Part shown: positions 1-36,840 of the stretch, one piece after another
How the letters are laid out: every line of letters starts with the position of its first letter
How positions within the stretch are numbered: position 1 is the stretch's first letter
Assembly: GCF_000801955.1 (NCBI RefSeq)
Contig: NZ_JSZO01000006.1
Span: forward strand, 1-64,000
Length of the DNA: 64,000 nt
Direction: 5' to 3'
From: Ralstonia sp. A12
Lineage (GTDB): Bacteria > Pseudomonadota > Gammaproteobacteria > Burkholderiales > Burkholderiaceae
Notes under the pieces: model-generated
What the model was told of the DNA's origin: nothing
The model's database searches: none
Seen by the model: only the letters and a program-made list of their open reading frames with translations
Program-made: the position numbers and the translations under genes

Positions 1-84
1 CAAAAAAGCTGACAAGCCCGGAGCGCCGCGACCCCAGGGCCATATCGCGAGTACAGAGCCTTCGTTGGTAAGCTCAAATGCTGC

Positions 85-3000
85 TCACCATGCAGCACGG
101 GCGCGATGCAGAGCCGCTACGCGGTCCAATTGCTCAAGAAGGTCTCGCGGGGCGGCCACACCCGTCGCAATTGCCGCCGCCTGAAGTAACTGGGCTAGCT
201 GCTGCGGAGGGTTTCCGTCGTCATGAATCGCCTCATTCAGTAGGCCAACGGACATGCGAGGTGAGAGTAGTAGCGCGGGCGTTCTAATGTGCTCCCGCCA
301 CATTGTTGAGAACGCCTTCGCCAACGATGCTAGTGCTCCATCGAAACACACTACGCTCGACATCTTCGGCAACCATGCCAGAGCGATAGCTTGACAAGTC
401 GCAGTCACTCTTGGCTTGCGGTGCTTCTCCAAAAGAAGCCGGAAAACTGCACCCAACCGGTCAATTGAAGGCACATTGACATCATTGAAGATCCCTGGAG
501 CGTTACTTGCATTGACGGAAACGACACGCAAGGCAGTCCGCACGTCTTCAATCAAATAGGAGCTATAGGCTCGCACCTCGAAATCTCCAATCCAATCATC
601 TGCAAGTGCATCCATTGAACCGCCAGAGAGCGCGCGGAGGAGTAGTGCCAGGGAAAATGCCGGCGCCATACCCATCGGAGCAGATCGATCAGCGTCTTCA
701 ATTTCGGCGTCGTAGAGCGACGCCGGATCCAAGGAACTCCTCTCTTGAGCCCGCCTTCGCCAAAAATACTCGTTTAGGCGATAGACGCAGCTAGACAAGC
801 CTTCCAATTGGCCACTCGCAACTACTTCGTCACATCGAAGCGACCAGAACTGATAGCCAGCAGCTACCACTCTGGAGTCGCCTAGCAGTGAACGTAGGCG
901 ATCAATGCCGCTGATATTGACATTGAGAAGCGAGGCGATCTCCACCAAGAAGGCGGTCGCCATATCTGAAGGGAGTTTCGGCAGTTCAGCGATTTGCTTG
1001 TCTCGGCCTGGATTGCTGCATTGTCCAAGGATAGGTTCGTGAGCAGGCTCCGCTCCAAATTTTCCACGAAGTTGCTCCAGCATCCAGAGGAGCACATGAC
1101 CACCAAGCTTCTTGGCTGCAAAAAGATCAAACTGCTTACTCGGATCGAAGTCTTGTTCAAAGGCTGACAGTCCTTCGAGTAGAAGCGAGATGACCCACGT
1201 CCTAGCTCCATCTTTGAAAGCACAGTACGCAGCATCAAATAAAGCACCTCCTGCTGTTGCGGGCATTGAGCTCTCGCTCGCGCTTCGAGCCGCGCTTTCA
1301 AACCACTCGGAAGCAGAGCCAAAGTCTCGAAGCGTGCCAGCCGCGATTCCAGCTTTGCGAAGAGTTAAAGGATCACGTACGAGCCGGTCTCCGTTGGAAG
1401 ATATCCGCCATAGAGAGTCTTTCCACAGGTCCAAAGACTGCTTGAATTGTTGTCGACCAAAATAGACTGCTGCCTCCTGAGCAATCAACACGGGAGATTC
1501 CCCGAATTGCCCAGCCGCTTCACGCAGGCACGTGATGGCCTCCACGTTGCGAGACAGGTGGTCCTCGTATAGGATCGAAAGCACTCGGGCCACAGCGCCA
1601 CCCATCGACGCTGCGCCCCACTCCTTCGCGCGGCGCAGCATTCGACGCATGGTTTGCTCAATAAGCTGCCAACGTGGCATCTCCCGATTGATCTCACTCC
1701 TCCAAGGCCCCTCAACGAAGAAATTGCTGTTGCAGAACAAAGGGATAGCAAATGCCTTCAACATGCGCTCGCGGGCCGCTGGCACTGATGATTCGAGCGC
1801 GTCTAGTAGGTCCCGTAGTAGGTCAATACTGTCGCAGCGAACAAAGTTGAAACCGAATAGCACCGCGATCCAATCTGCATCTTTTACCTCGCCGTAGGGA
1901 CAAAGGTCAGCGCACAACTGCTTGTCGAAGGGCGCCTTGGTGAGCACGCCCTCTAAGCGATGCAACTCTTCGAGGGCGTGAATCAAGTTGTGTGCCCCAA
2001 AGGATTGTTCGGTCGAGTCGGCAATCGATATTGCCCACATGAACTGGATCACATCCCGCTGTTCTGTGTCCTCAATCCGACCGATTGCATCCTTCCACTC
2101 CATAGCCAAAGCCGGAAGCAGCGAAGGCTGTTGCTTCTTGGCTATTCGGAATTGCATCAATCTCAGAAGCGCAATGCTGCGCGCACTGAATCGCCCTACC
2201 CCCTTGTCATCATCGCGCCCAACAAACACCATGGGTAAGAGAAGCTCCGCCGCGGCACCTTCCAAGATCCGCCTTTCGGCTGAGAAGGAAACCATAAGCA
2301 TGGCCAAACGCGCGTCGTCGCCACTTTCCCATGCGTGCATAAATAGCGGGAATGCTTTGTCTACTGAGACAGAATGCTCTCCCGTGATTGCGTCAAAGAT
2401 GCAGGCATGTACGCGTGCCACCTTGGTCGAGGTCCACGCTTTCGTTGCCTGCTGAAAGAGCAATGCGGTGATTCTGTACTCCTTCGACCTGTGGCTTTCG
2501 ACCCAGCGACCAACCAAGCGATCAAGAGCGTCCCCTGCTGCAGGTAGCCCCAAAAGAGACTCTCCCATCGATACGATTACTTGTCGGCCCAGAGGACAAA
2601 AAGCCAAGCTAAGGGAATAAAGCAGTTCGAGGTCTTGCTGTTGAAGCGTCCGTGCCGCCGTGTGTCGAGCGAAGGTACGTGCCTCCTCGATACTTGTTGG
2701 TGCATTGTTGAGCATGGTGCTCGGTGAATCTATCCAACCTGTAGCTTGCAGTTCCAACCCGAGAAGGTGGACCAGCTTGGGGTGACCGCCACCGCTTCGC
2801 GCAAGAATCGCTGATGCAAACTGTGGAGCCTTTTCGTCAGGGCAGCCTAGGTCGGACAGAAACTCTACTACCTCTTCGCGCGCAAGGTCAGGGACAGGGC
2901 AGATATGGATGCGATTTGTCCGCAACCTAGGATCGATCGCCTCAGGATTCACACCCTTCGCTGTAAGAATCAGAAAGCGCGACTGTCGAGCACACTCTTC

Positions 3001-4209
3001 GATCAACACGCAGAACCGCGCCCAAATAGCTTGGGCAATGCTGTTGGCGACTGGAAAATCGTCAACAATCACAGCTCCTTTCGAGGGTACCGTACGAATT
3101 GACACAAGTAGTTGATCTAGGGCTGAGGGCAAGGATGCGTCGCTCAAGGCGGATAAATCAACCCAGCACGCGACGCCGCCAAGCTCTTTTCCGATTAGAC
3201 TGGCCACCGTTGTCTTTCCACGTCCCTCAGATCCGACGACCAAGATTGGGCTACCCTGCTTGACACTCGTTTCGACGAGTGAGCGACGCGGCAAATGAAA
3301 TGGAGGTAGTGATGGCTCTACACCAAGCGTTGCCGATCCAAACTCAATGGCGCTGGGATACCCCAGGCCATGGCCACCGCAGGCGGCTAGCGCCTGCGCC
3401 AGAAGGGCACTTAGCCCTCGTCTTGCTGGCAACATGACGCTAGTTTTAGCTTCGAAAACCTTGATGAGGTCAGCCCGCGTCAAGCTGCGGAGTACTGGGT
3501 CTCTTTCTTTGATGATCTTCGTGCAATGATTCAGCAGACCATCGACAGCCTTGCGAGATTCATTTGAATCGATGTCGCGCTCGTCGCCGAACTCTATGGC
3601 CATCCGCTCTACAGCAAGCTGTACGGCCTCGGTAGAGGGTTCATTTGTCGCCCAAACGATGCGTTGAAATAGCTTCGACCGGAGTTGTCCCGCCTCGCCT
3701 AATTCAAGAAATCGCAGCAAACTGGGGGTACGCAATGTCGTGCCCAGATAGCGGGCGAGCCGCAAAGCGGCCTCGTCGTCCCCATCGGCAGCGATTCTCC
3801 AAAGGTCAATACCTCTGAGGCCATTAAAGGGATTGCCTTGCTCTGATCCGATATCGCCACGCGTGACAAACCGCATTTTTAGGGATGGGCGGTCACGGTT
3901 CCGTTCGATGTGCAACCAGAAGTTCTCAATGGCGTCGCGAACATCTTTGGAGCCGAGCGTAATATTTTTCCCGGAGTTCTTAACCTGAAACGTTTCAGCA
4001 TCATCTCCATCCCCCATAAGGTCGAAGTCTTCGGCCCCCTCGAGATAGAGTACTTGGCCCGCCTCGAGACACATCCAGGCCTCGACGGAACGCCAAACTT
4101 GGTAGTCGTATCCCCGAAGCGCATCGATCGCTTGTCTGCGGATATCAGCTGCAAGCGGGGCTGAAGAGGTCTGTCTCTGAGTTGGATTCACGGATAGTTT
4201 TCCGGGCAA
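85..4209 (-). CDS. STAND NTPase with N-terminal Cap4-like nuclease domain; candidate Avs-type anti-phage protein
   Basis: 1374 aa. Residues about 25-170 resemble the Cap4/DUF4297 nuclease fold: GYDYQ (33-37), then LEGAEDFDL (56-64) and FQVK (74-77), which supply the acidic residues and QxK of a PD-(D/E)XK site. A Walker A loop GSEGRGKT lies at 326-333, a Walker B-like VIVDD at 380-384, and a sensor-like RFLILTAKG at 411-419. The rest, to the C-terminus, is helical and partly TPR-like (around FKQSLDLWKDSLW and FGSASEWFESAAR). This order (nuclease, STAND ATPase, helical sensor) is that of Avs-type defence proteins, in which the C-terminus recognises a phage protein and triggers the nuclease; that role is inferred here. 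The start is TTG at 4209, with GGAGG only 4 bases upstream; GTG at codon 7 is an alternative. Third codon positions are much less GC-rich than in purL next door, suggesting transfer. No partner gene is visible. Confidence 0.75.
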   Translation of the reverse strand: MPGKLSVNPTQRQTSSAPLAADIRRQAIDALRGYDYQVWRSVEAWMCLEAGQVLYLEGAEDFDLMGDGDDAETFQVKNSGKNITLGSKDVRDAIENFWLHIERNRDRPSLKMRFVTRGDIGSEQGNPFNGLRGIDLWRIAADGDDEAALRLARYLGTTLRTPSLLRFLELGEAGQLRSKLFQRIVWATNEPSTEAVQLAVERMAIEFGDERDIDSNESRKAVDGLLNHCTKIIKERDPVLRSLTRADLIKVFEAKTSVMLPARRGLSALLAQALAACGGHGLGYPSAIEFGSATLGVEPSLPPFHLPRRSLVETSVKQGSPILVVGSEGRGKTTVASLIGKELGGVACWVDLSALSDASLPSALDQLLVSIRTVPSKGAVIVDDFPVANSIAQAIWARFCVLIEECARQSRFLILTAKGVNPEAIDPRLRTNRIHICPVPDLAREEVVEFLSDLGCPDEKAPQFASAILARSGGGHPKLVHLLGLELQATGWIDSPSTMLNNAPTSIEEARTFARHTAARTLQQQDLELLYSLSLAFCPLGRQVIVSMGESLLGLPAAGDALDRLVGRWVESHRSKEYRITALLFQQATKAWTSTKVARVHACIFDAITGEHSVSVDKAFPLFMHAWESGDDARLAMLMVSFSAERRILEGAAAELLLPMVFVGRDDDKGVGRFSARSIALLRLMQFRIAKKQQPSLLPALAMEWKDAIGRIEDTEQRDVIQFMWAISIADSTEQSFGAHNLIHALEELHRLEGVLTKAPFDKQLCADLCPYGEVKDADWIAVLFGFNFVRCDSIDLLRDLLDALESSVPAARERMLKAFAIPLFCNSNFFVEGPWRSEINREMPRWQLIEQTMRRMLRRAKEWGAASMGGAVARVLSILYEDHLSRNVEAITCLREAAGQFGESPVLIAQEAAVYFGRQQFKQSLDLWKDSLWRISSNGDRLVRDPLTLRKAGIAAGTLRDFGSASEWFESAARSASESSMPATAGGALFDAAYCAFKDGARTWVISLLLEGLSAFEQDFDPSKQFDLFAAKKLGGHVLLWMLEQLRGKFGAEPAHEPILGQCSNPGRDKQIAELPKLPSDMATAFLVEIASLLNVNISGIDRLRSLLGDSRVVAAGYQFWSLRCDEVVASGQLEGLSSCVYRLNEYFWRRRAQERSSLDPASLYDAEIEDADRSAPMGMAPAFSLALLLRALSGGSMDALADDWIGDFEVRAYSSYLIEDVRTALRVVSVNASNAPGIFNDVNVPSIDRLGAVFRLLLEKHRKPRVTATCQAIALAWLPKMSSVVCFDGALASLAKAFSTMWREHIRTPALLLSPRMSVGLLNEAIHDDGNPPQQLAQLLQAAAIATGVAAPRDLLEQLDRVAALHRARAAW

Positions 4210-4652
4210 GGCCCCTCCAAGTCATAGTAAATACCCAAATTACATGGAGGCAAGGCGACATCAAGGGCAAAGGATATCTACAAATCTGATCACTGGATTA
4301 ACTGCATTAGTGAGAATATGCCATGCCCTCTTTTTCTCCGCCTTTGGTTGGCAGGGGTACGCTAGGCATGCATTTGAGAAAAAACTTGAGCGCAGGCGCC
4401 CTTCCATGCGCTCTTGTCGCGAAACCGTTTGGACACGCTTGGCAACTGGCGCTCACTGGATCGAGAGCAATCGATCTTCGTATTGGATACTCGTGACATT
4501 GATCATCCCCACACATTCCAACAGCGATCCCCCGAGAAACCACATGGAGCGGCGCGCTGCCTTGCTTGTGTTGGTCCTCGAACCGCAGAAGCGTTTCTAT
4601 CCGTGACTAGGTCGGCACGGCCTATAGGGGTTGCGAGTTGAAAACCTCAAGG
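4210..4652. other. gene-poor, relatively AT-rich spacer
   Basis: About 440 bases between the nuclease-STAND gene and the terminator of the next gene. The open frames on both strands have no recognisable domain, good ribosome binding site or Ralstonia-like codon use. The only assignable element is the TTGGAGGGG ribosome binding site of the upstream gene at its left edge. No tRNA, integrase remnant or terminal repeat was recognised. It probably holds the promoter of the STAND gene and the scar of the insertion. Confidence 0.4.
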
Positions 4653-4686
4653 AAAAACGCGCCGAGGTCACCCCCGGCGCGTTTTT
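4653..4686 (-). terminator. intrinsic terminator of the Pr6Pr gene
   Basis: Perfect inverted repeat AAAAACGCGCCG / CGGCGCGTTTTT with a 10-base loop. It lies 25 bases beyond the stop of the minus-strand Pr6Pr gene. Both flanks are A/T runs, so it could work in both directions. Confidence 0.85.
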
Positions 4687-4710: not shown

Positions 4711-5400
4711 TCAACCCACGCTGCCGCCAGCCTCCTGCTGGCGGGGCATCAACACCAACGGCGCAGGTACCCAACGGTCCAGCCCCTTGAACAGCAAGAC
4801 CAGAACACTCGACCCAGCAAGCACCGCCGCTGTGTTCGCCAGCGCAGCCGGATAGCCGATCTTCGCCACATTCAAGAACGGATAGGGATACCACCCACTC
4901 AAAGCGCCGTGCACGAAGGTGTACGCAAGCCATGCCGCCGGCCAGATGAGCGACAGCGCGACGGTCGACCACCCGATGCGGGGCCGGGGGCCAAACAGCA
5001 GCCAGCCGACCAGCGCCATCCATGGCGAGACGTAGTGAAAGCCGTTTGACGCCAGAAGCGCCAAGCCCGTTGCCTTCGAGATCGGCGCCAGCACGATGTG
5101 ATACACCAGCCCCGTCGTCGCGATGCCGAGCAAACCATCCAGCCTGAGTACGCGCCACCATTTGCCATCTCGCGCAGGGTCCATCACGAGAGAGATGGCA
5201 GCCGCCGCAACCAGGAGGTTGCTTTGGATGGTGAAGTAGCTGAACAACCGGACAAGCCGCGTGGCAAGCGAGACCTGGCTGCCCACACCGCTGACGGTCA
5301 CGCTGAGCTGCACGATCAGTGCAACGACAATGACGGCGGCCAACACGGCGTGCCATGCCCGTGCCGGCCGCATCGGTGATGCGCTGATCAACTCAGCCAT
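4711..5400 (-). CDS. Pr6Pr family membrane protein
   Basis: 229 aa with about six hydrophobic segments, first at about 18-38 and last near 195-212. Conserved-looking patches are FSYFTIQSNLL, GLVYHIVLAP and FVHGALSGWYPYPFLN, as in the Pr6Pr family of six-helix integral membrane proteins. The function of the family is unknown to me. The gene starts 3 bases after the purL stop on the same strand, so the two are probably cotranscribed, and it ends at a strong hairpin. Confidence 0.75.
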   Translation of the reverse strand: MAELISASPMRPARAWHAVLAAVIVVALIVQLSVTVSGVGSQVSLATRLVRLFSYFTIQSNLLVAAAAISLVMDPARDGKWWRVLRLDGLLGIATTGLVYHIVLAPISKATGLALLASNGFHYVSPWMALVGWLLFGPRPRIGWSTVALSLIWPAAWLAYTFVHGALSGWYPYPFLNVAKIGYPAALANTAAVLAGSSVLVLLFKGLDRWVPAPLVLMPRQQEAGGSVG

Positions 5401-5403
5401 GCA

Positions 5404-8400
5404 TCACGCCATCCACTTGCGTGCATTGCGGAACATGCGCATCCACGGGCTGCTGCCGTCGCCGGCGGTTTCCCAGTCCTTCGGGTGCCAGCTCATCTGC
5501 ACCGCACGGAACACGCGCTCCGGATGCGGCATCAGCGCGGTGAAGCGGCCGTCGTGCGTCGTCACCGAAGCAATGCCCTGCGGCGAGCCGTTCGGGTTCA
5601 GCGGGTACGTCTGCGTGACTTCGCCACGGTTGTCGACGTAGCGCAGGCCGACGGCCACCTTGTCGATGTCGCCTTGCTGCGAGAAATCGGCATAGCCCTC
5701 GCCGTGCGCGACGACGATGGGGATGCGGCTGCCTTCCATGCCCGCGTAGAAGATCGACGGAGACGCTTCCACCTGCACGGTCACCAGGCGGCCTTCGTAC
5801 TGCTCCGACTGGTTGCGCGTGAACTTCGGCCATGCGCCCGCGCCCGGGATGATCGGGGCGAGGTTTGCCATCATCTGGCAGCCGTTGCACACGCCCAGCG
5901 CGATGGAATCGGTGCGGTTGAAGAACGCCGCAAACTGCTCGGCCAGCATGCCGTTGAAGAGGATCGTCTTCGCCCAGCCTTCGCCCGCGCCCAGCACGTC
6001 GCCGTAGCTGAAACCGCCGCAGGCGACGAAGCCCTTGAAGCCGGCCAGCGTGGTGCGGCCGGCCAGCAGGTCGCTCATATGGACGTCGTAGGTGTCGAAG
6101 CCGGCCTTGTCCATCGCGTAGGCCATTTCGATCTGCGAGTTCACGCCCTGCTCGCGCAGGATGGCCATGCGCGGGCGCGCGCCCGTGGCAATGAACGGCG
6201 CGGCCACGTCTTCCGCAATGTCGAACGTGAGCTTGGGCGAGATGCCCGGGTCTGCAGCGTCGAGGATGCGGTCGAATTCGCTCCGCGTGCACTCGGGGTT
6301 GTCGCGCAGACCAGCGATGCGCGAGGAAACGTCCGTCCAGGTGCGTTGCAGTTCGATGCGGGAGGCGCTGAAGACCTTCTTGGCGTCGCGCCAGATTTCG
6401 ATATGGTCGTTGGCGTTCGGCGCGCCGATCACATGGCTGCAGCCGGCCAGGCCGTGCTCGCGCAGCACCGCAAAGACAGCGTCGCGCTGGGCCAGCGGCA
6501 CCTGGATAACGGCGCCGAGTTCTTCGGAGAACAGTGCACGCAAAGTCAGATCAGCGCGACGGCCGGAGACTTGCTGCGCCCAGTTCTTGGCGTCGCCATG
6601 GTCCGCGCCGTGTTCGTCGAGCGTGAGCATGTCAACGTTGATCGACACGCCGCAATGGCCGGCAAAGGCCATTTCGCTGACGGTCGCCCACAGGCCGCCG
6701 TCGGAGCGGTCGTGGTAGGCGAGCAGCGAACCACTGGCGTTCAGTTGCTGGATCGCGGCGAAGAAGCGCTTGAGGTCTTCCGCGTCGTCCACGTCGGGCA
6801 CGCTGTTGCCGATCTGCTGCGTGACCTGCGCCAGGATGCTGCCGCCCATGCGGTTCTTGCCACGGCCCAAGTCAATCAAAATCAGCGTGGTATCAGCTGG
6901 CGCGTTGGTCGATTCGACTTGCTTGAGCTGCGGGGTCAGCGTCTTGCGCACGTCCGTCACCGGCGCGAAGGCCGAGACGATGAGCGACACCGGCGCCACG
7001 ACTTCCTTCGCTGCGCCCTCATCTTCCCACTTGGTGCGCATCGACAAGGAGTCCTTGCCCACCGGAATGCTGATGCCCAGTGCCGGGCACAGGTCCATGC
7101 CGACAGCCTTGACGGTGTCGTACAAACGGGCGTCTTCACCGTTCACGCCGCAGGCGGCCATCCAGTTGGCCGACAGCTTGAGTTGCGTGAGCGATTCGAT
7201 CGGCGCAGCGGCGATGTTGGTGATGGATTCGCCGATCGCCATGCGGCCCGATGCCGGTGCATTGATGACGGCCAGCGGGGTGCGCTCGCCCATCGTCATC
7301 GCTTCGCCGGTGTAGCCCTTGTAGTCGAGCGTGGTGACGGCCACGTCAGCCACCGGTACCTGCCACGGGCCGACCATCTGGTCGCGCGTGTTCAGGCCGC
7401 CGACGGTGCGGTCACCGATGGTGATCAGGAACGACTTGCTGGCCACCGTCGGATGACGCAGCACGTCGCGTGCGACGACTTCCAGGTCCAGGCCGGTGAC
7501 ATCCACTTCCGGCAGTTCCTGCGCCACGCGGCGCACGTCGCGGTGCATGCGCGGCGGCTTACCGAGCAGCACGTCCATCGGCATGTTGACCGGGAAGTGG
7601 TCGGCGCCATCCACCGGAGCATCGCTGTCGACCACCTGCAGTTGCTGCTCGTCGGTAGCAAAACCGACCACCGAGAACGGCGCACGCTCGCGCTCACACA
7701 TGGCCTGGAAGCGCGGGAAATCGCCCGGGGCGATGGCCAGCGTGTAGCGCTCTTGTGACTCGTTGCACCAGATTTCGGCCGGGCTCAGGCCCGACTCTTC
7801 GAGGTGCACCTGACGCAGGTCGAAGCGTGCACCCTTCTCAGCGCCGTCGACGATTTCCGGGAAGGCGTTGGAGATGCCGCCCGCGCCCACGTCGTGGATC
7901 GACAGGATCGGGTTGTCTTCGCCCAGTGCCCAGCAGGCGTTGATGACTTCCTGCGCGCGGCGCTGCATTTCGGGGTTGCCGCGCTGGACGGAATCGAAGT
8001 CCAGGTCAGCGGTGTTGGTGCCGGTTGCCATCGAGCTGGCAGCGCCGCCGCCCATGCCGATGCGCATGCCGGGGCCGCCCAGCTGGATCAGCAGCGTGCC
8101 GGCCGGCAGGCCGTGCTTGTGCGTGTGGCCGGCGTCGATGTTGCCGATGCCGCCGGCAATCATGATCGGCTTGTGATAGCCGCGCACGGTGCCGCCCACG
8201 TTTTGCTCGTAGACGCGGAAGTAGCCGCCCAGGTTGGGCCGGCCGAATTCGTTGTTGAACGCAGCGCCGCCGATCGGGCCTTCGATCATGATCTGCAGCG
8301 GCGAGGCAATGCGCTCGGGCTTGCCGATCGGGCCAGCGGCGGCTTCATCCGGATTGCGGTGTGCCACGGGCTGGGCCGTATCGCGGGCGTTTTCCCACGA

Positions 8401-9510
8401 TTGCACAGCTTCGGGCAACAGCAGGTTCGACACGGTGAAGCCGGTCAGGCCAGCCTTGGGCTTGGCGCCACGGCCAGTCGCGCCTTCGTCGCGGATCTCC
8501 CCGCCCGCGCCGGTCGATGCGCCCGGGAACGGCGAGATGGCCGTCGGGTGGTTGTGTGTTTCCACCTTCATCAGCGTGTGCGTGAGCGCTTCGCGGCGGC
8601 CGTATTGCGGCACGCCCGTCACGGCTTCGGTGCCGGCGTGCGGGAACCAGCGCTCGGCCATGCCGCCTTCCATCACGGCAGCGTTGTCCGAGTACGCGAC
8701 GATCGTGCCCTGCGGCGCGAGTTGATGCGTGTTGCGGATCATCGCGAAGAGCGATTTGTCCTGCGCCTCGCCGTCGATGGTCCAGTCGGCGTTGAAGATC
8801 TTGTGGCGGCAGTGCTCGCTGTTGGCCTGCGCGAACATCATCAGCTCGACGTCGGTCGGGTTGCGTTCGAGCTTGCGGTAGGCGTCGACCAGGTAGTCGA
8901 TTTCGTCGTCGGACAGGGCCAGGCCCATTTCGACGTTGGCGGCTTGCAGGGCACGGTTGCCGGCGGCGGCATCGCCACTGCCCAGATCGACGAAGCGCAG
9001 TGCCTTGGCAGGCAGCACGTCGAACAGGCCGTAACCCGCTTCGCGCGAGTCGATCACGGCTTCGGTCATGCGATCGTGCAGGTGCTCAGCCACGGCGGCG
9101 CGGGTGGCGTCGTCCAGGTGCTTGCTGTTACCTGTCAAGGCGCGGATGAGACCCTTCTTGCACGTGACGGTGAATTCCACGCCGCGCTCGATGCGGTGGA
9201 TCTGCGGCAGCGCGCAGTGGCGAGCGATTTCCGTCGCCTTGCTGGCCCACGGCGAGATCGTGCCGAAGCGCGGAATGACCACGAAGCGATCGCCCTCAAC
9301 CTCAGCCGGCGCGGGCGAACCATAGGTCAGCAGCGCTTGCACACGGGCGGATTCATCGGCCGACAGCGGCGTGTCGGCGGCCACGAAATGCAGGTACTGG
9401 GCACTGACGGCTTCGATATCAGGATCGATGCGCTTGAGGGTGGAAAGCAGGCGTTGCTGGCGGAAGGCGGACAGCGCGAGAGCGCCGGGAAAGCACGAGA
9501 AATGCGCCAT
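5404..9510 (-). CDS. purL: phosphoribosylformylglycinamidine synthase (single-chain PurL)
   Basis: 1368 aa from the ATG at 9510 ([13 protein letters not shown]). The frame stays open 32 codons further upstream, but those codons do not look coding. The enzyme makes FGAM from FGAR, glutamine and ATP in step 4 of purine synthesis. It is the long proteobacterial form: an N-terminal FGAR-AT domain, two AIRS-like synthetase halves ([17 protein letters not shown] in the first; GKDSLSM in the second) and a C-terminal class I glutaminase with Cys near 1208 (GVCNGCQMM) and the His-Glu pair near 1329-1331 (MPHPERVF). Length is normal. No attenuator or PurR-type site was recognised upstream. Confidence 0.98.
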
Positions 9511-9657
9511 GGTGGGCAAGGCAGGCAGTAGCTGAAAGGAGGGTTCCCCGGCGTGCGCGGGAAAACCGCCATTGTACCTTGCCCTGCCCCTATTACCGAC
9601 CCTCAAATCGGCCTGAAATGCCCTTGCCGTGGCCGGAACTGGCCGAAAAGACCAGTT

Positions 9658-10236
9658 TTACAGCGATGTGGCCGAGCGGGCGGCCTGCTCGTACAGGCCT
9701 GTGAGCACACGCAGCAGGCGCGCCAGTTCGCCAATTTCGGCGTTTTCCTCGCCGCTGGGCGAAATATTGCTGGTCAGGCACTGCTCGCGGATCTCGCGGT
9801 AGCGGGCGCAGGCCTTTTCGCCAGCCGCGGTGGTGGTGTAGGTGACTTCCTTGCCGCTACGCGTACCCTCCACCAGCTCCATCCCCTGCAGCTTCTTGAG
9901 GGAATACGTCACGAGGTGGGTGTCTTCCACGTTGAGCACGAAGCAGATGTCGGCCAGCCGCTTGGCACGACCACGATGGTTGACGTGGTGCACCACCAGC
10001 ACATCGAGGAAAGTCAGGTCGCGCACGCCGGCAGCAGCCATGCAGCGCACGCACCAGCGGTTGTAGGCGTTGTAGGCCGTGTTGAGCGCAAATTCGAACT
10101 CCGACAGCTCCGGGCTGCGCGCCGACACCAGATGCGACGAAGAGACGATCGGCCCACCGGCACGTTCCCCTCTCTCGGCTTCGTTGGCGGCAGCTTGCGG
10201 CAGATCAGCTTTCGGGGTGGTCGGCGATTTAGACAT
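9658..10236 (-). CDS. MarR-like winged-helix transcriptional regulator
   Basis: 192 aa from the ATG at 10236 (MSKSPTTP); an in-frame ATG at 10245 would add three residues. The first 45 residues are polar and look disordered. The rest is a winged-helix fold of MarR type: LTFLDVLVVHHVNH, then the helix-turn-helix LADICFVLNVEDTHLVTYSLKKLQ and the wing GKEVTYTTTAAGEKACARYREI. The C-terminal helix ELARLLRVLTGLYEQA would dimerise. It lies alone between purL and the divergent NAD(P)H-hydrate repair gene; nothing indicates its effector or targets. Confidence 0.8.
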   Translation of the reverse strand: MSKSPTTPKADLPQAAANEAERGERAGGPIVSSSHLVSARSPELSEFEFALNTAYNAYNRWCVRCMAAAGVRDLTFLDVLVVHHVNHRGRAKRLADICFVLNVEDTHLVTYSLKKLQGMELVEGTRSGKEVTYTTTAAGEKACARYREIREQCLTSNISPSGEENAEIGELARLLRVLTGLYEQAARSATSL

Positions 10237-10351
10237 GCGGGACATGCGCAACTCGGGTGCGAAAAGGGGCGGAATCGGTCTGAAACGCGGGCTATTGTAA
10301 GAGAATAGATCGTCATGTCTGTTCCGGCGCGTCCACAGTCCCGCAGTCACC

Positions 10352-11947
10352 ATGTCCGCACATCCCACCTGGCGTGAAATCCTCATCAATGGCGCGCTGG
10401 CCGCGCACCACGGCGCCGACCTGCTTTTCGGCACCTCAGGTATTCGCGCGCTGGAAGCCTCCGCTTACCGCTCACTCGATCCGTTCACGCTGATGGCACG
10501 CGCCGGCGAGGCTGCCGCTGACTGGCTCCAGACCCGTGCCCCGCACGGGCATTTGCTGTTTGTTGCCGGCCCAGGCAACAACGGCGGCGATGCGCTCGTC
10601 GCGGCAACGGTGCTGCACCTGGCGGGGCACGCCGTCACCGTGTGGCTGGCCGCCGACCCGGCCAAGCTGCCCGACGATGCCCACCGCGCCTGGACCGAAG
10701 CGCGCGCAGCCAACGTGCCGATCGAACTTTTGCATACCACTGCCTCCGTACCGGCCACGACCACTGCCATCATCGATGGGCTGTTCGGCATTGGGTTGGC
10801 GCGGCCACTGGCCGGGCTGCATGCGGCGCTGGTCGACACGCTCAATACCAGCAGGCTGCCGGTCTATGCACTCGATATTCCCTCCGGGCTGAACGGCGAC
10901 ACGGGCCAGCCGCCCGCGCCGGAATCGCCTGTGGTGCAGGCACGGGCCACGCTCACCTTCCTCGCCGTCAAACCGGGCTTGCTGACCGGCGGCGGTCGCG
11001 ATGCTGCCGGCGATATTGCACTGGCCGATCTGCAGGCCGCGCAGCCGGCGTACGACGGCGTGATCGAAGCGGAAGCGCTCATCAATACGCCCGCACGCTG
11101 GCTCGCTCATCTACCGCGCCGCAAGCACGATGGGCACAAGGGGTCGTATGGCAGCGTAGCGATCGTCGGCGGTGCGCATGGCATGGTGGGGGCGCCGCTG
11201 CTGACCGCGCGCGGTGCGCTGTACCTGGGCGCGGGTAAGGTGCATGTGGTATCGCTGGCGGCGGATGCGCCGCGCGTGGACCCCGCCCAGCCCGAACTGA
11301 TGTTGCATACGTGGGGCACGCTTGACCTGGGTGGCATGCAAGCGCTGGCCGTGGGCCCGGGTATGAGTGCGTCCAAGGATGCCGAAGCCGCGCTCGACCA
11401 CCTGCTGGATCGAATGCTGTCGTCGCGCATCCCCACCGTGTTCGACGCCGATGCGCTGAACCTGTTTGCCAAGGTGCCCGCACTGCTCGCCCATCTGACG
11501 CAACTGGCGCAAAGCGGCGTGCCCGTCGTGCTCACGCCGCATCCGCTTGAAGCAGCGCGCCTGCTGCAGGTGGATGCGCAGACCGTTCAACGTGACCGTC
11601 TGGCCGCAGCCAAGGCACTCGTCAACCGAACCGGGGCTGCTGTCGTACTCAAGGGCTCAGGCACTGTGATTGCTGCACCGGGCATGACGCCCGCTATCAA
11701 CCCAACGGGCAATGGCGGTCTGGCCTCCGGCGGGACGGGCGACGTGCTGACCGGCATGGTGAGCGCGCTGCTTGCGCAAGGCGTGCCCGCCCGCGAGGCG
11801 GCGCTTTCCGCCGTCTGGCTGCACGGCCGTGCTGCGGACGATCTAGTCTCCTCGGGCGAGGGCCCGATCGGCCTGCATGCGAGTGAACTGTGCGCCCCGG
11901 CGCGGCGCGCACTCAACGCACTGCTGGCGTCGGACGCGCGCGGATAG
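10352..11947 (+). CDS. nnr: bifunctional NAD(P)H-hydrate epimerase / ADP-dependent NAD(P)H-hydrate dehydratase
   Basis: 531 aa. It repairs NADHX and NADPHX, hydrated forms of the nicotinamide cofactors. The N-terminal half (to about 240) is the YjeF_N epimerase, with GPGNNGGDALVAATVL near residue 70 and DIPSGLNGDTG near 175. The C-terminal half is the ribokinase-like dehydratase, with KGSYGSVAIVGGAHGMVGAP, DADALNLFA, LTPHPLEAARLL and the phosphate-binding NGGLASGGTGDVLTGM. Fusion of the two activities is usual in bacteria. pgi follows 61 bases downstream on the same strand. Confidence 0.95.
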   Translation: MSAHPTWREILINGALAAHHGADLLFGTSGIRALEASAYRSLDPFTLMARAGEAAADWLQTRAPHGHLLFVAGPGNNGGDALVAATVLHLAGHAVTVWLAADPAKLPDDAHRAWTEARAANVPIELLHTTASVPATTTAIIDGLFGIGLARPLAGLHAALVDTLNTSRLPVYALDIPSGLNGDTGQPPAPESPVVQARATLTFLAVKPGLLTGGGRDAAGDIALADLQAAQPAYDGVIEAEALINTPARWLAHLPRRKHDGHKGSYGSVAIVGGAHGMVGAPLLTARGALYLGAGKVHVVSLAADAPRVDPAQPELMLHTWGTLDLGGMQALAVGPGMSASKDAEAALDHLLDRMLSSRIPTVFDADALNLFAKVPALLAHLTQLAQSGVPVVLTPHPLEAARLLQVDAQTVQRDRLAAAKALVNRTGAAVVLKGSGTVIAAPGMTPAINPTGNGGLASGGTGDVLTGMVSALLAQGVPAREAALSAVWLHGRAADDLVSSGEGPIGLHASELCAPARRALNALLASDARG

Positions 11948-12008
11948 AAAGACGTCATGTTGCGCCGTTATACTGCGCATTCGCTTTTGCTACTCAATGT
12001 CATACCGC

Positions 12009-13628
<1,620 letters not shown>

Positions 13629-13632
13629 CCGA

Positions 13633-14343
13633 TCAGAGTTCGGTGACGGTTTCGTCGCCGACCAGATGGCCAGCCTCGATCGTGAGAATGCGATTGCAGC
13701 GCGCGGCCACCGAGCGGTCATGGGTAACCAGTACCAGTGTGGAACCAGCGCTCTGGTTCAGCTCGAACATCAGCGCAATGACAGCCTCGCCGGTGGCGGT
13801 ATCCAGGCTACCGGTCGGCTCATCTGCAAAGAGGATATCTGGTTCGGTGACGAACGCACGTGCCAACGCTACACGTTGCTGCTCGCCGCCCGACAAAGTC
13901 TTCGGATAGTGCGACAGACGTGCACCCAGACCAACGCGGTCCAGCAGCGTTGTGGCGCGACGGCGCATCTCCGTGGCATTCACATCGCCTTGCAGCTCAA
14001 GTGGCAGCATCACGTTCTCGAGCGCGGTCAGGTGCGGCAGCAACTGGAACGACTGGAATACAAAGCCCACGTGACTACCGCGAACTGCGGCTCGACCATC
14101 CTCATCCAGCCCGAACAAATCGTGGCCCAACAGCTTGACCTTACCGGAGCTCGGCAGGTCCAGGCCCGCCAGCAACCCAAGTAGCGTTGACTTGCCTGAG
14201 CCCGATGCGCCGACGATGGCCAACGTCTCACCCGCTTCCACACGAAAGCCAACATCGCTCAAAATAGGCAACTCACCGGTGGCATCGCGCACGGTCTTGT
14301 GCAGCGAATCGACTTCAATCACCCAGGTAGCGGAAGACGACAT
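13633..14343 (-). CDS. ybbA: YbbA/LolD-type ABC transporter ATP-binding protein
   Basis: 236 aa from the ATG at 14343. Walker A GASGSGKST is at 45-53, the signature LSGGEQQRVALARA near 147, Walker B ILFADEPTG near 168, and the H-loop LVTHDRS near 205. The family powers MacB/FtsX-type permeases. In E. coli the same ATPase gene is also divergent from tesA but is followed by its permease gene ybbP; here the next gene is convergent pgi, so no permease is encoded beside it. Its start codon shares bases with that of tesA. Partner and substrate are unknown. Confidence 0.9.
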   Translation of the reverse strand: MSSSATWVIEVDSLHKTVRDATGELPILSDVGFRVEAGETLAIVGASGSGKSTLLGLLAGLDLPSSGKVKLLGHDLFGLDEDGRAAVRGSHVGFVFQSFQLLPHLTALENVMLPLELQGDVNATEMRRRATTLLDRVGLGARLSHYPKTLSGGEQQRVALARAFVTEPDILFADEPTGSLDTATGEAVIALMFELNQSAGSTLVLVTHDRSVAARCNRILTIEAGHLVGDETVTEL

Positions 14344-31031: not shown

Positions 31032-31628
31032 TTAGGCAATGGTGGTGGTGGCCTGTTCAAAATCCTGCCGGGTGCAGAAAGCGAGGCTGGCGATCTTTTC
31101 GGTAAAGGCGACGTTGCGGTCGTAGATGAAACCGGCGGCGCGGTTGATGGCGTGGATGCGTGTGTTGTTGGCGTCAGGCTCGACCACGATGCGTGCCGCA
31201 CCCAGGTGCTCGAACATGAAGCGCATCAGGGCGAAGAACACGGTGCGCGTGTAGCCGGCAATACGCACATCCGCTGGCCCGATGAAGATATGCATACCGA
31301 GGTCACCGGGCTGCACGTCGTAGAACGTGCGGATGCGGTCGTGCGCGGGGTCGTAGCACTCGGCAAGGAAAGCCGGGCGGCCGTCTTTCCACACGAGATA
31401 CGCGGTGGCATAGCCAGAGCCCATCAAGTCCTGGTAGACCTGACCGACCTCGACTTCCGTCTTGTCGCGCATGAGCCAAAACGATGCGCGCTCCGGTTGG
31501 AACCAGCGGTGCAGTGTCGGGATCTCTTCCGGAATGCGCAGCAGGTGGAAGGTGAAGCCCTCGGCATCGGTGTACGGCGCGCTTGCCGCGTCAGCACGGC
31601 GGTGGATGGTGTGGGCATCAATTGGCAT
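31032..31628 (-). CDS. alcB: hydroxamate siderophore N-acyltransferase (GNAT, AlcB/RhbD family)
   Basis: 198 aa. A GNAT-fold acyltransferase of the siderophore type: IPTLHRWFQPERASFW in the N-terminal part, then GDLGMHIFIGPADVRIAGYT and ARIVVEPDANNTRIHAINRA, with the family's CoA-binding region and conserved GF near the end. It would transfer succinyl (or another acyl) from CoA to the hydroxylamine made by the AlcA-like enzyme. It overlaps the exporter gene by 11 bases and stands 15 bases before alcC. Confidence 0.88.
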   Translation of the reverse strand: MPIDAHTIHRRADAASAPYTDAEGFTFHLLRIPEEIPTLHRWFQPERASFWLMRDKTEVEVGQVYQDLMGSGYATAYLVWKDGRPAFLAECYDPAHDRIRTFYDVQPGDLGMHIFIGPADVRIAGYTRTVFFALMRFMFEHLGAARIVVEPDANNTRIHAINRAAGFIYDRNVAFTEKIASLAFCTRQDFEQATTTIA

Positions 31629-32874
31629 GGGCTGACGCCTCCAGATTGGCGCGTGCGTCTGCCCTGCCCCCTTCGTCCACGTTGTCCGCGTGGCTGGCGC
31701 TGGGCACGTTCAGGATCAGCCGGTCGAGCAACGCCGTCAGCACAAAGCCACCAGCCGCCAGCAGGAACGGCAGATGCAGCCCGTAACGATTGACAATCGC
31801 CCCCGCTGCAAACGAAGACAGCAGCACCCCCATGTTCTGGAAGAAATTGGTGATGCTGTAATCGTGCGCGTAGCGCTGCGGTGTCGACAGCCGGAACAGG
31901 TTCACCTCCAGCTTCACAATGATCTGGAACAGCGCCCAGCCGTACAGCACGCGCCCGAGCACGATCAACATTGGGTTGGGCGCCGCATGCAGCAGCAGGC
32001 CCACCATGCCAAGCAGCAGATTGCCCACCGTGTGATCCGGCAACTGACCGCCGCGCGCACGAATGCGCGCATGCAGGCGCAACGCCGCGATGGCGACCAC
32101 ACCCGGAATGGCAAACGCCATGCCAGAAACGAACTCGCTGTCGAGCCCCGACACCTGCTGCCAGTACACCGAGAAAAACGGGCGGATCAGATACGCGCTG
32201 AAGTCGAACACCAGCATCACCAGCGCTAGGCGCAGGATCGGCAGGCGGTCGCGCCAGCCGGTGCGTGGCACCTTGGCCGCTTCCGCGGCGGCGGCCTCGG
32301 CATGCTCGCCCGAGTTGACGCGCACGATCTTGCCGCTGCGGATCAGGTAGAAGCACACGCCCATCTGGAAGAAATCGCCCGCAGCCATGGCGACGATACT
32401 GGCGCGCGGCCCCCACGTCTGCAGCACGAGGCCGCCCACCACCGCACCAAAGATGGCGCCAAAGTGCACCACCACCGAGAGGATGCCCACCGTAGCGGCG
32501 TGCTGCTCCTTGGGCGTGAGCCGCATCATGTACGGATACATCAGCAGGTAGCTGCTCTTGCACATGAACATCAGCATCGACAGCACCCAGTACGTCACCA
32601 CATCAGGGGCCCAGTCGCTCAGCAGGCTGAAGGTGCCCGCTGCAAACTGCGTGTAGACCAGCAAATACAGCGGCTCGATGCGTTTGGCCACGCGCGCCCA
32701 GATTGGCAGCGTGCACATCACGGCAATCGAGATGGCCGCCACATAGGCGCCCACATGCACGGGGCTGTCCAGTCCATAGCGCGACGCAAAGAACTGCGGA
32801 TAGAACGGAATCAGGATCGCATCGCTGATGACGGCAAACACCGTCATCAGGATGATGGTGTTGCGCAGCGTCAT
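31618..32874 (-). CDS. MFS transporter, probable siderophore exporter
   Basis: 418 aa with about 12 hydrophobic segments and no drug-pump signature. Its start overlaps the alcA stop (ATGA) and its end overlaps alcB by 11 bases, so it is built into the siderophore operon; export of the product is the natural job. Bordetella has an MFS alcaligin exporter, AlcS, at the far end of its alc locus, whereas here the transporter is between the first two enzymes. I therefore give no symbol. Direction of transport cannot be read from the sequence. Confidence 0.82.
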   Translation of the reverse strand: MTLRNTIILMTVFAVISDAILIPFYPQFFASRYGLDSPVHVGAYVAAISIAVMCTLPIWARVAKRIEPLYLLVYTQFAAGTFSLLSDWAPDVVTYWVLSMLMFMCKSSYLLMYPYMMRLTPKEQHAATVGILSVVVHFGAIFGAVVGGLVLQTWGPRASIVAMAAGDFFQMGVCFYLIRSGKIVRVNSGEHAEAAAAEAAKVPRTGWRDRLPILRLALVMLVFDFSAYLIRPFFSVYWQQVSGLDSEFVSGMAFAIPGVVAIAALRLHARIRARGGQLPDHTVGNLLLGMVGLLLHAAPNPMLIVLGRVLYGWALFQIIVKLEVNLFRLSTPQRYAHDYSITNFFQNMGVLLSSFAAGAIVNRYGLHLPFLLAAGGFVLTALLDRLILNVPSASHADNVDEGGRADARANLEASAHAN

Positions 32875-34250
32875 GTGGTCACCTCGACGGCCTCTTCCGC
32901 AGCGTCTTCGACGCTCTCGTTGACGGCCCTTTCGGCAACCAGCGGAATGAACTCCGGCGTCGCCGGAATCGCGAAATCCTGGATGGCGACGCGTGGTTCG
33001 ATCTTGTAGTGCTCGACGCCGGTCAGCTCGCGGATGATGTACGAGTTGCGATAGCAGCTCATGCCGATGTCCTGATTGGTCACGCCGTGCGTGTGCAGGC
33101 CCGCGTTCTGCACATAGATCTCGTTGCCGTTGACGTCTGCCGCGTAGTTGCGGGCGAGCTGGTAACGGCCCTTTGCATCCCAGCGCAGCCGGTGGCGGAT
33201 GCCGTCGAGAAACGCCGGGACGTTCTGCTCATAGCCGGTGGCGAACACGAGCCCCTCTGTGCGGTGGGCATAACGCGCACCGCTGTCGACCTGCTGAAAC
33301 TCGATCTCGTAGGTGCCCGTAGCGGCGTCGTGGCGGCAGGCTTGCAGCTCGCAATTGGTGATCAGGTGCGTGCGCAGTTCACCCACCTTGCGCTTGTCGT
33401 CGAGCAGGTCGTAGATCTGGTTGATCAGGCTGGCGTTCACGCCCTTGTACAGGCTGTCCTGCGTGCGGACGATGTCGTCCTTGCGGCCGTCGGGCAGGCT
33501 GTAGAAGTGGTCGATGTAGTCCGGCGAGAACATCTCCAATGTCAGCTTGGTGGTCTCCATCTGGAAGAAGCGCGGCGAACGCGTGATCCAGACCAGGCGG
33601 TAGTCATGCTTGTCACTTTCCTTGAGCAGGTCGTAATAGACCTCCGCCGCGCTCTGCCCGCTGCCGACGATGGTGATGGAGCGTTTCTCGCGCAACGACT
33701 CGCGCACGTCGATGTAGTCAGCGGTATGCAGGTAGCGATGACCATCGCGCCGCACGCACGCTGGGAACGACGGCGATGACCCCACCCCAAGCACCAGCTT
33801 GCGCGCACGCACCTCAAACGGCTCGCACGCTGCGCCACGGAAGCCGGTGACGACGTAGCAGCCACGCTGCGCGTCGTACGCCAGCGCCTGCACGTCGTGG
33901 TGGAAGCGCGCACTGGTGAGCTGCGCGACGACCCACTTGCAGTAGCGGTTGTATTCCGCCCGGCTCAGATAGAAGTTCTCGCGGAAGTAATACGAATAGA
34001 TCTTGCCTTCCTGCTTGCAGTAATTCAGATAGCTGAAACGGCTTTTCGGGTCCGCCAAACTGACGAGATCCGCCAGGAATGGATTCTGCAATGTGGTGTT
34101 ATCAATCAGCATGCCAGGATGCCAGTTGAATTCCGGTGAACGTTCCAGAAATACGCCATCCAGATCATCAATCGGCTCAGCCAGACACGCCAGGCTTAAA
34201 TTAAATGGACCTAACCCAATGGCAATAAAGTCATGAATATCTGATTCCAT
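32871..34250 (-). CDS. alcA: FAD/NADPH-dependent diamine or amino-acid N-monooxygenase (AlcA/IucD/SidA family)
   Basis: 459 aa from the ATG at 34250, 10 bases after AGGAGG. It puts the hydroxyl on the terminal amine, the first step to a hydroxamate. FAD motif IGLGPFNLSLA starts near 11, NADPH motif IVGSGQSAAEVYYDLL near 208, and the C-terminal ATGYEQNVPAFL near 355 is the family's substrate/flavin motif. The substrate is probably putrescine, by analogy with AlcA and PubA; ornithine or lysine hydroxylases look similar. It heads the siderophore operon. The first codons and leader are noticeably AT-rich. Confidence 0.9.
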   Translation of the reverse strand: MESDIHDFIAIGLGPFNLSLACLAEPIDDLDGVFLERSPEFNWHPGMLIDNTTLQNPFLADLVSLADPKSRFSYLNYCKQEGKIYSYYFRENFYLSRAEYNRYCKWVVAQLTSARFHHDVQALAYDAQRGCYVVTGFRGAACEPFEVRARKLVLGVGSSPSFPACVRRDGHRYLHTADYIDVRESLREKRSITIVGSGQSAAEVYYDLLKESDKHDYRLVWITRSPRFFQMETTKLTLEMFSPDYIDHFYSLPDGRKDDIVRTQDSLYKGVNASLINQIYDLLDDKRKVGELRTHLITNCELQACRHDAATGTYEIEFQQVDSGARYAHRTEGLVFATGYEQNVPAFLDGIRHRLRWDAKGRYQLARNYAADVNGNEIYVQNAGLHTHGVTNQDIGMSCYRNSYIIRELTGVEHYKIEPRVAIQDFAIPATPEFIPLVAERAVNESVEDAAEEAVEVTT

Positions 34251-34426
34251 CACGTTTGAACCTCCTGATTTACAAAAGCGATGACAAAAAGACTCCAGCC
34301 GGCGAACACGCGATCGCGCGCGCACGCCTCCCGTCGGCTGGCGACATCAGGCCGCGCCTAGGCTGGGTGAATTCAGGTGGGGTTTTGATCACGGCCGATG
34401 CGTGCCGGCCGCTGAGGGATCATGGA

Positions 34427-34444
34427 ATATCGCAAATGCGATAT
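34427..34444. promoter_or_regulatory. 8-2-8 palindrome upstream of alcA; candidate operator
   Basis: ATATCGCA-AA-TGCGATAT, perfect arms, about 180 bases before the alcA ATG in the 300-base gap between alcA and the receptor gene. It does not fit Fur (GATAATGATAATC). No -35/-10 pair was convincing in the gap. The gap also holds a GCCCAGCG/CGCTGGGC hairpin (34463-34493) with its T run in the loop rather than after the stem. Confidence 0.4.
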
Positions 34445-34551
34445 CGAGACAGATTTTGAACCGCCCAGCGACTGCAAAAAAGAGCCGCTGGGCAACAAGC
34501 TAAGTCACAATACTACACGGAGATTATGATGCTTGCGTTAAGAAATATAAA

Positions 34552-36756: not shown

Positions 36757-36840
36757 GGTGTGTTGGAAGATGCGTGTGGTTTCCACACCCATCGACGATC
36801 CACACTGCAAAAGCGGAACCGGCTTCGGAACTTTTTTCGA

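Follow-up and report, generated by a model that had tools for sequence, protein, structure and literature searches.

Introduction

Bacterial STAND sensors are related to the NLR receptors of plants and animals, and a sensor class that differs from those described may reveal another conserved feature of phages. The closest described systems are the Avs proteins. According to the accessible part of PMC12931631, terminase, portal or Ksap1 acts as the trigger of the Avs1-4 nucleases, and Avs5 uses SIR2. The accessible part of PMC11291478 describes how binding of a phage protein assembles SeAvs3 into a tetramer in which the nuclease domains are paired; it also reports that the DUF4297 nuclease requires dimerisation and that host and phage DNA are degraded in infected cells. 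Here we analyse a single gene at the start of a 64,000-nucleotide stretch of Ralstonia sp. A12 (contig NZ_JSZO01000006.1, positions 1 to 64,000, assembly GCF_000801955.1; hereafter the window) that encodes a predicted STAND nuclease. We put at about 0.83 the probability that its product is an antiviral STAND (NLR-like) abortive-infection nuclease, made from one gene and triggered most likely by a bound phage protein.

Domain architecture and conserved residues

The window protein has a nuclease domain, a STAND nucleoside triphosphatase (NTPase) module and a long helical C-terminal part (Table 1). Four motifs had been quoted in a first-pass annotation of the DNA, and all were found: LEGAEDFDL at residues 56-64, FQVK at 74-77, GSEGRGKT at 326-333 and VIVDD at 380-384. 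They are not a product of chance, since they are conserved across 73 aligned sequences, namely the window protein and 72 full-length relatives (from 62 of 80 genome-contig loci and 10 of 13 plasmid loci). The alignment leaves out open reading frames (ORFs) below 1300 residues, those whose BLASTP match starts after residue 39 or ends by residue 600, and L002 (the same as L017 by position and score), L003, L006, L012, L091, L094 and L095. All 73 sequences have E57, D61, E123, G331 and K332; E60 and Q75 are each kept in 72, and H476 and P477 in 71 each. Position 77 is K in 65 of the 73, the window protein included, and R in 8. The catalytic E/D and QxK residues and the nuclease fold of the Cap4/DUF4297/LmuA PD-(D/E)xK family are present, and P-loop, Walker B, G-H-P sensor motif and winged helix all follow in STAND order.

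By itself the window protein had only weak matches. Among the PADLOC models, it matched LmuA (E-value 6.7e-9, residues 23-233), DUF4297 (1.1e-3) and, at the P-loop, mad8 (0.044), and among the NCBIfam models DUF4297_antiphage (1.2e-3). The same libraries and Pfam were compared with the members of alignment A3, which holds 63 rows (the window protein and 62 relatives, residues 1-740), and matches were counted at E-values up to 0.01. LmuA was matched by 51 members, DUF4297 by 43, mad8 by 20 and candidate models PDC-S01 by up to 9 (PADLOC); Cap4_nuclease by 20, nSTAND3 and AAA by 19 each and NACHT by 8 (Pfam); DUF4297_antiphage by 41 (NCBIfam). The Avs4 model of NCBIfam was matched weakly by 3 members (best E-value 3.2e-5), the window protein not being one of them. 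A profile search recovered DUF4297 structures for the nuclease region (best E-value 2.6e-8).

AlphaFold models of the window protein had a mean predicted local distance difference test score (pLDDT) of 88.7 and 87.5. With residues 1-740, Foldseek ranked Avs3 (SeAvs3, PDB 8dgc; E-value 3.8e-12) first, the sole Avs structure among the fold matches listed (best 50 per search). The nuclease domain matched the folds of DUF4297, LmuA and Cap4, and the STAND part those of CED-4, NRC4 and RPP1. The first-pass annotation had proposed an Avs-type layout of a Cap4/DUF4297-type nuclease, a STAND core and helical repeats and had called for a nuclease-fold match; a PD-(D/E)xK fold was found, and the layout agrees with the family matches, the models and the top rank of Avs3 in Foldseek. 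Its C-terminal part, given there as about 900 residues, is indeed helical, with about 730 residues following the winged-helix region. It had also been called an unfamiliar sensor. This does not apply to residues 641-1081, which form a superhelix of tetratricopeptide repeats (TPR): a profile matched consensus TPR proteins (best E-value 2.7e-5, around residues 885-970), and TPR structures were also found by fold. In its general type such a sensor is like those of other STAND proteins. It does apply to the last 290 residues or so, which match nothing named; with Pfam, residues 1082-1374 gave no match in the window protein and one weak match in 1 of 36 members. In the loop beyond the TPR array G1062 is kept in 70 of the 73 sequences, S1065 in 72, N1066 in 59 and P1067 in 57.

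Four Burkholderiaceae sequences share a mean identity of 0.74 in the nuclease, 0.69 in the TPR part and 0.61 in the C-terminus. A hypervariable sensor was considered and rejected on this comparison by region, which showed slow, even divergence. The same behaviour of the sensor would suit a guard, that is, the same machine monitoring a host process disturbed by phage (RecBCD, translation or a chaperone, for example) with no direct binding of a phage protein, and by the title of PMC12169576 there is a bacterial NACHT protein whose sensing is mediated by a chaperone of the host. We consider a guard unlikely: the relatives live in unrelated hosts, where a conserved phage fold would be the simpler target, and the Avs precedents recognise phage proteins, as the accessible part of PMC12931631 has it.

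The gene and its insertion site

The ORF is a real, intact gene. Base 1 of the window is also base 1 of its contig (C56), and the stop codon lies 84 bases from that edge, so that the description of the gene in the first-pass annotation as standing alone can be judged on the upstream side only. Within the 6.1 Mb genome (60 contigs) the protein matches only itself, and there is no second copy. A decaying or inactive copy would have parallels elsewhere: the gene is present as two ORF pieces at 8 of 80 loci, where sequencing errors are possible, locus L089 is a fragment, and genome G051 carries a P-loop fragment. For the window copy we regard this as very improbable, given its intact frame, the presence of all conserved catalytic and Walker residues and full-length relatives at 58-62% identity. 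A P-loop-region fragment (L003:1393-1920; 61% identity over 114 residues) was seen in a genome of the same family; it overlaps an ORF whose N-terminus, by eye, presumably resembles a serine resolvase.

The composition of the gene is foreign, with a GC content of 0.548 and a third-codon-position GC content (GC3) of 0.56 vs a GC3 of 0.85 in nearby purL; the lower G+C suggested earlier is thus real, and AT-rich is too strong a word for it. The similarity of the window to same-genus genomes G005 and G013 ends at about 4642-4653. In both, the next large ORF past the counterpart of the flanking gene at 4711..5400 is what we take to be an FAD-oxidoreductase-like gene, and in G012 other genes are found instead. 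In the Ralstonia sp. A12 genome the oxidoreductase is at C1:1548-3170, behind a presumed serine-hydrolase-like gene. From this end of similarity, the differing neighbours and the oxidoreductase on C1, we conclude that the gene occupies foreign DNA at a variable site flanked by native genes, where contigs C56 and C1 are probably adjacent. Of 17 bases, 14 pair between the starts of the two contigs (window 1-60 and C1:1-40), a near-complementarity whose alignment score was reached in 8 of 1000 shuffles and which is suggestive of a hairpin that broke the assembly.

Table 1. Features of the window around the STAND nuclease gene.
Feature	Position	Strand	Remarks
STAND nuclease gene, complete	85..4209	minus	1374 residues; TTG start; stop codon 85-87; frame without internal stops
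C-terminal helical region, residues 1082-1374	88..966	minus	lowest conservation among the four domain regions; nothing named in Pfam
TPR superhelix, proposed as the sensor arm (residues 641-1081)	967..2289	minus	profile, TPR structures, model pLDDT
Conserved loop GQCSNP, residues 1062-1067	1009..1026	minus	beyond the TPR array; conservation; outside the helices of the model
STAND NTPase and winged-helix region, residues 296-640	2290..3324	minus	Walker A 326-333, Walker B 380-384, GGHPKL 474-479
Nuclease domain, residues 22-262	3424..4146	minus	LmuA match; DUF4297 structures; fold; conserved E57, E60, D61, Q75-x-K77, E123
Stretch upstream of the gene, likely part of the insert	4210..4641		without counterpart in same-genus G005 and G013, which share the flanking gene
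GGAGG, likely ribosome-binding site	4214..4218	minus	4 bases ahead of the TTG start; role inferred
Flanking native gene at the insertion site	4711..5400	minus	presumably a multi-pass membrane protein; in 4 of 16 same-genus genomes, own included
purL (our assignment), second flanking gene	5404-9606		in 16 of 16 same-genus genomes, own included

Elsewhere in the window, three minus-strand ORFs at 31618-36810 presumably form a siderophore locus, as they seem to resemble an MFS exporter, an ornithine/lysine N-monooxygenase and a TonB receptor; GC content falls locally at 34001-35000.

Distribution of the relatives

The spread of the gene is patchy. In 149 genomes searched, the own genome included, the matches outside the own genome were a full-length relative at 62% in G088 and the P-loop fragment of G051. 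None was found in the 15 other same-genus genomes of this set, two of which are 88 and 90% complete; a gene fixed in the genus, the case that the first-pass annotation had asked to be checked, was therefore not what we saw. Full-length relatives at 58-62% identity occur in other Burkholderiaceae, and relatives at about 25% in several phyla and on plasmids. An alignment-based scan of genome contigs gave 104 relatives, and 80 of them were retained. By record titles their hosts are Burkholderiaceae, alphaproteobacteria, gammaproteobacteria, Poribacteria, Verrucomicrobia, Nitrospinae, Gemmatimonadaceae and others. When genome contigs were scanned with a single protein, 23 pattern matches came up and none of them was confirmed, and among 398 genomes drawn from the phylum the gene of the window was the one match; absence from single-protein scans is weak evidence because the alignment-based scan found 104 relatives. 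A phage origin was rejected, with 0 matches in 50,697 phage records; a search of viral contigs with one pattern gave 41 pattern matches, 0 of them encoding a relative.

A quick tree of 63 rows, built from the columns of the nuclease and STAND parts, requires 7 label changes for Alphaproteobacteria, 3 for Betaproteobacteria and 3 for Gammaproteobacteria. The alpha and beta labels are more clustered than in nearly all shuffles, 18 rows carry no class label, and long branches blur the details. The label changes would fit transfer between classes and are not proof of it.

Plasmids commonly carry phage-defence genes. A relative is found in 14 of 72,556 plasmid records, 13 loci of which were taken for comparison, and on three Agrobacterium plasmids the gene has an integrase and a member of the RHE_PE00001 family nearby, with cargo that differs each time. 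Both facts would suit a weapon of mobile elements, in which the same machine senses an incoming plasmid or a product of conjugation and kills or clears the cell. Far more relatives (104) are in genome contigs, where chromosome and plasmid are pooled, and plasmid carriage is uninformative on the target because plasmids so often bear genes of phage defence. We hold this use of the machine to be improbable.

Four further proteins (L006:9980-11824, L091:9941-16363, L094:9974-11125 and L095:9926-13711) have the same nuclease domain, at 31-40% identity within residues 2-263, followed by other C-termini without Pfam matches, and range from 383 to 2140 residues. Judging by these sequences, the nuclease domain is a module swapped between proteins. 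On a Rhizobium leguminosarum plasmid (L012) two overlapping ORFs encode the nuclease-STAND part (9836-12304) and the repeat part (12301-14031), either as a natural two-part protein or through a frameshift.

Genomic neighbourhood of the relatives

Several relatives adjoin defence systems, as the survey of homologues suggested by the first-pass annotation brought out. In Paraburkholderia ferrariae (58%) ZorD, ZorC and ZorB are directly downstream; the Caballeronia relative has an MkoC-like neighbour and the Trinickia relative one neighbour gene with matches to candidate systems only. At separate plasmid loci the neighbours are QatB, C and D, a CBASS cyclase and SIR2, and the most distant relative, at a plasmid locus of Deinococcus, has TIR and HEPN genes alongside. 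For 19 loci (of 20 selected, L022 being left out) chosen by their long contigs and available genomes, with genes called by a simple longest-ORF rule and distant genes of the same contigs as control, 199 PADLOC families matched at E-values up to 1e-10 among the 112 nearest genes vs 27 among 112 control genes, with 25 families listed for each set.

This company bears on a non-immune role, such as a STAND regulator of DNA-damage or developmental signalling. TPR-STAND proteins outside defence exist, and the fold matches also include 6mfv, in which STAND is combined with a TPR sensor. A fused, conserved PD-(D/E)xK nuclease, patchy distribution, foreign composition, defence neighbours and absence from the 15 other genomes of the genus that were searched fit no housekeeping role, and such a regulator is in our judgement most improbable.

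No recurrent partner gene was found, since no cluster extends beyond 8 of 93 loci. Two clusters reach 8 loci: a PIN-type gene (8 Poribacteria) and a methyltransferase-like family, presumably of restriction-modification (7 of 8 in Poribacteria). At L021-L023, L025, L027, L029, L030 and L084 this small PIN-type ORF directly adjoins or overlaps the gene at its 3' end, with a spacing of -43 to +7 bases, and its L025 copy matches Pfam PIN with an E-value of 1.4e-12. If the PIN gene is translationally coupled, the Poribacteria loci would be two-gene systems. At L023, L026, L028, L029 and L030 (Poribacteria) a stretch of 87-95 residues precedes the nuclease; DUF4926 is matched by 5 of 63 members (best E-value 3.3e-23), which we take, as a group and not by one-by-one match, to be these five ORFs. 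A 116-residue gene is located just upstream at L026, L028 and L029, and its L026 copy matches DUF6883. At the three Agrobacterium plasmid loci (L011, L013 and L014), where the integrase is of the site-specific type, the cargo is SIR2, HEPN and Qat, or an AAA ATPase and a helicase, and the site is likely a defence-gene integration site.

Discussion

Several observations weigh against an antiviral STAND nuclease. The window protein stays under the Pfam cut-offs, with 12.2 vs 26.2 bits for Cap4_nuclease and 16.2 vs 21.2 bits for AAA, so that it gains its family names only through its relatives, and a PDB search with the single sequence gave no relative (one chain, E-value 0.44). The A3 profile ranks general AAA+ proteins (Midasin, Cdc48) top in the PDB at the P-loop; because of this preference the STAND name rests on nSTAND3, NACHT and the fold. 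Over the full span the alignment with Avs3 has a root-mean-square deviation of 19 to 26, which means that the domains match without a single rigid arrangement. The R found in place of the catalytic K in 8 of the 73 sequences may indicate that nuclease chemistry varies or is lost in some members. With regard to the neighbourhood, the downstream side of the window gene consists of 84 bases up to the contig edge, 5 of 10 neighbours scanned at the three closest relatives had no match at all, the control genes are not empty of defence families (HerA, RT_UG29), and the family counts overstate the number of proteins because one ZorD protein matches 35 families.

For the antiviral STAND nuclease that we favour, a series of events like that of Avs3 is best supported because the same parts are present in the same order. 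At rest the protein would be nucleotide-bound and inactive, with its nuclease domains held apart. A molecule of the invader, most likely a phage protein, would bind the TPR superhelix, the C-terminal helical cap or both (641-1374); the STAND module (296-640) would then open and exchange its nucleotide, and the protein would oligomerise. In the oligomer the N-terminal PD-(D/E)xK domains (22-262) would be paired as dimers able to cut double-stranded DNA of host and phage without sequence specificity, and the loss of DNA would stop the infected cell before phage release. Oligomer, nuclease activation and DNA target are here modelled on Avs3 and DUF4297, and the trigger, a directly bound phage protein, is the most tentative step of the series. 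The role in antiviral defence, which the first-pass annotation had drawn from the architecture, would likewise follow by analogy, and the new trigger that it suggested is possible.

A bolder proposal is that the family forms a distinct, unnamed class of antiviral STAND nucleases, present in several phyla and on plasmids, that uses a TPR arm with the conserved G-x-x-S-N-P loop and its own C-terminal cap to sense a protein of phages or plasmids different from those reported for Avs1-5 (terminase, portal, Ksap1 and JADA). We find this doubtful. The relatives are ready for mapping of the trigger because the gene is compact and single, named Burkholderiaceae and rhizobia strains carry it and the window protein has no match to an Avs model in our scans; the surprise is limited because Avs3 has the same architecture.

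LmuA works with the SMC-like LmuB. LmuA of Lamassu, which is the best PADLOC match, and Cap4 of CBASS belong to the same nuclease superfamily as the window protein, in which neither an LmuB module nor a SAVED domain was seen; SAVED is the domain with which Cap4 reads cyclic nucleotides (6vm6 entry title). The 25 recurrent clusters listed for the 93 related loci include none recognisable as SMC, the window itself ending downstream at the contig edge, and SMC_N was found in 2 of the 112 neighbours of the 19 loci. In HerA-DUF4297 the nuclease is a separate protein complexed with a HerA hexamer, as the accessible part of PMC11291478 describes, whereas in the window protein the nuclease is fused to STAND and TPR parts. 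No HerA gene was recognised upstream in the window or among the same 25 clusters, the downstream side being cut by the contig edge, and the HerA model was matched by 1 of 112 neighbours and 1 of 112 controls. In the accessible part of PMC13092281, on DefensePredictor, 13 systems with PD-(D/E)XK domains are given as newly validated, and one of them may belong to the window family. By titles and abstract openings, with subscription papers mostly outside the scope, we found no literature that names the family.

The order of effector, STAND module and repeat sensor of Avs types 1-5 is present in the window protein. It resembles Avs5 in nSTAND3, matched by the 19 members mentioned above, and in its repeat sensor, nSTAND3 being predicted for Avs5 and its sensor being of TPR type in some Avs5 according to the accessible part of PMC12931631, and differs from it in the effector, a nuclease instead of a SIR2 NADase. 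At 1374 residues it is smaller than the 2028-residue chain of Avs3 in 8dgc. PADLOC and NCBIfam contain models of other Avs types besides Avs4. None of the Avs models in the two libraries was matched by the window protein at E-values up to 10, a range in which HMMER filtering removes most matches with E-values above about 0.1, and by the models tested it is placed in no Avs family. It shares with Avs3, and with Avs1-Avs4 as a whole, the N-terminal PD-(D/E)xK nuclease, the central STAND NTPase and the C-terminal sensor, and by this analogy it is best described as an unnamed cousin of the Avs phage sensors that would work much as Avs3 does, rather than as a new kind of system.

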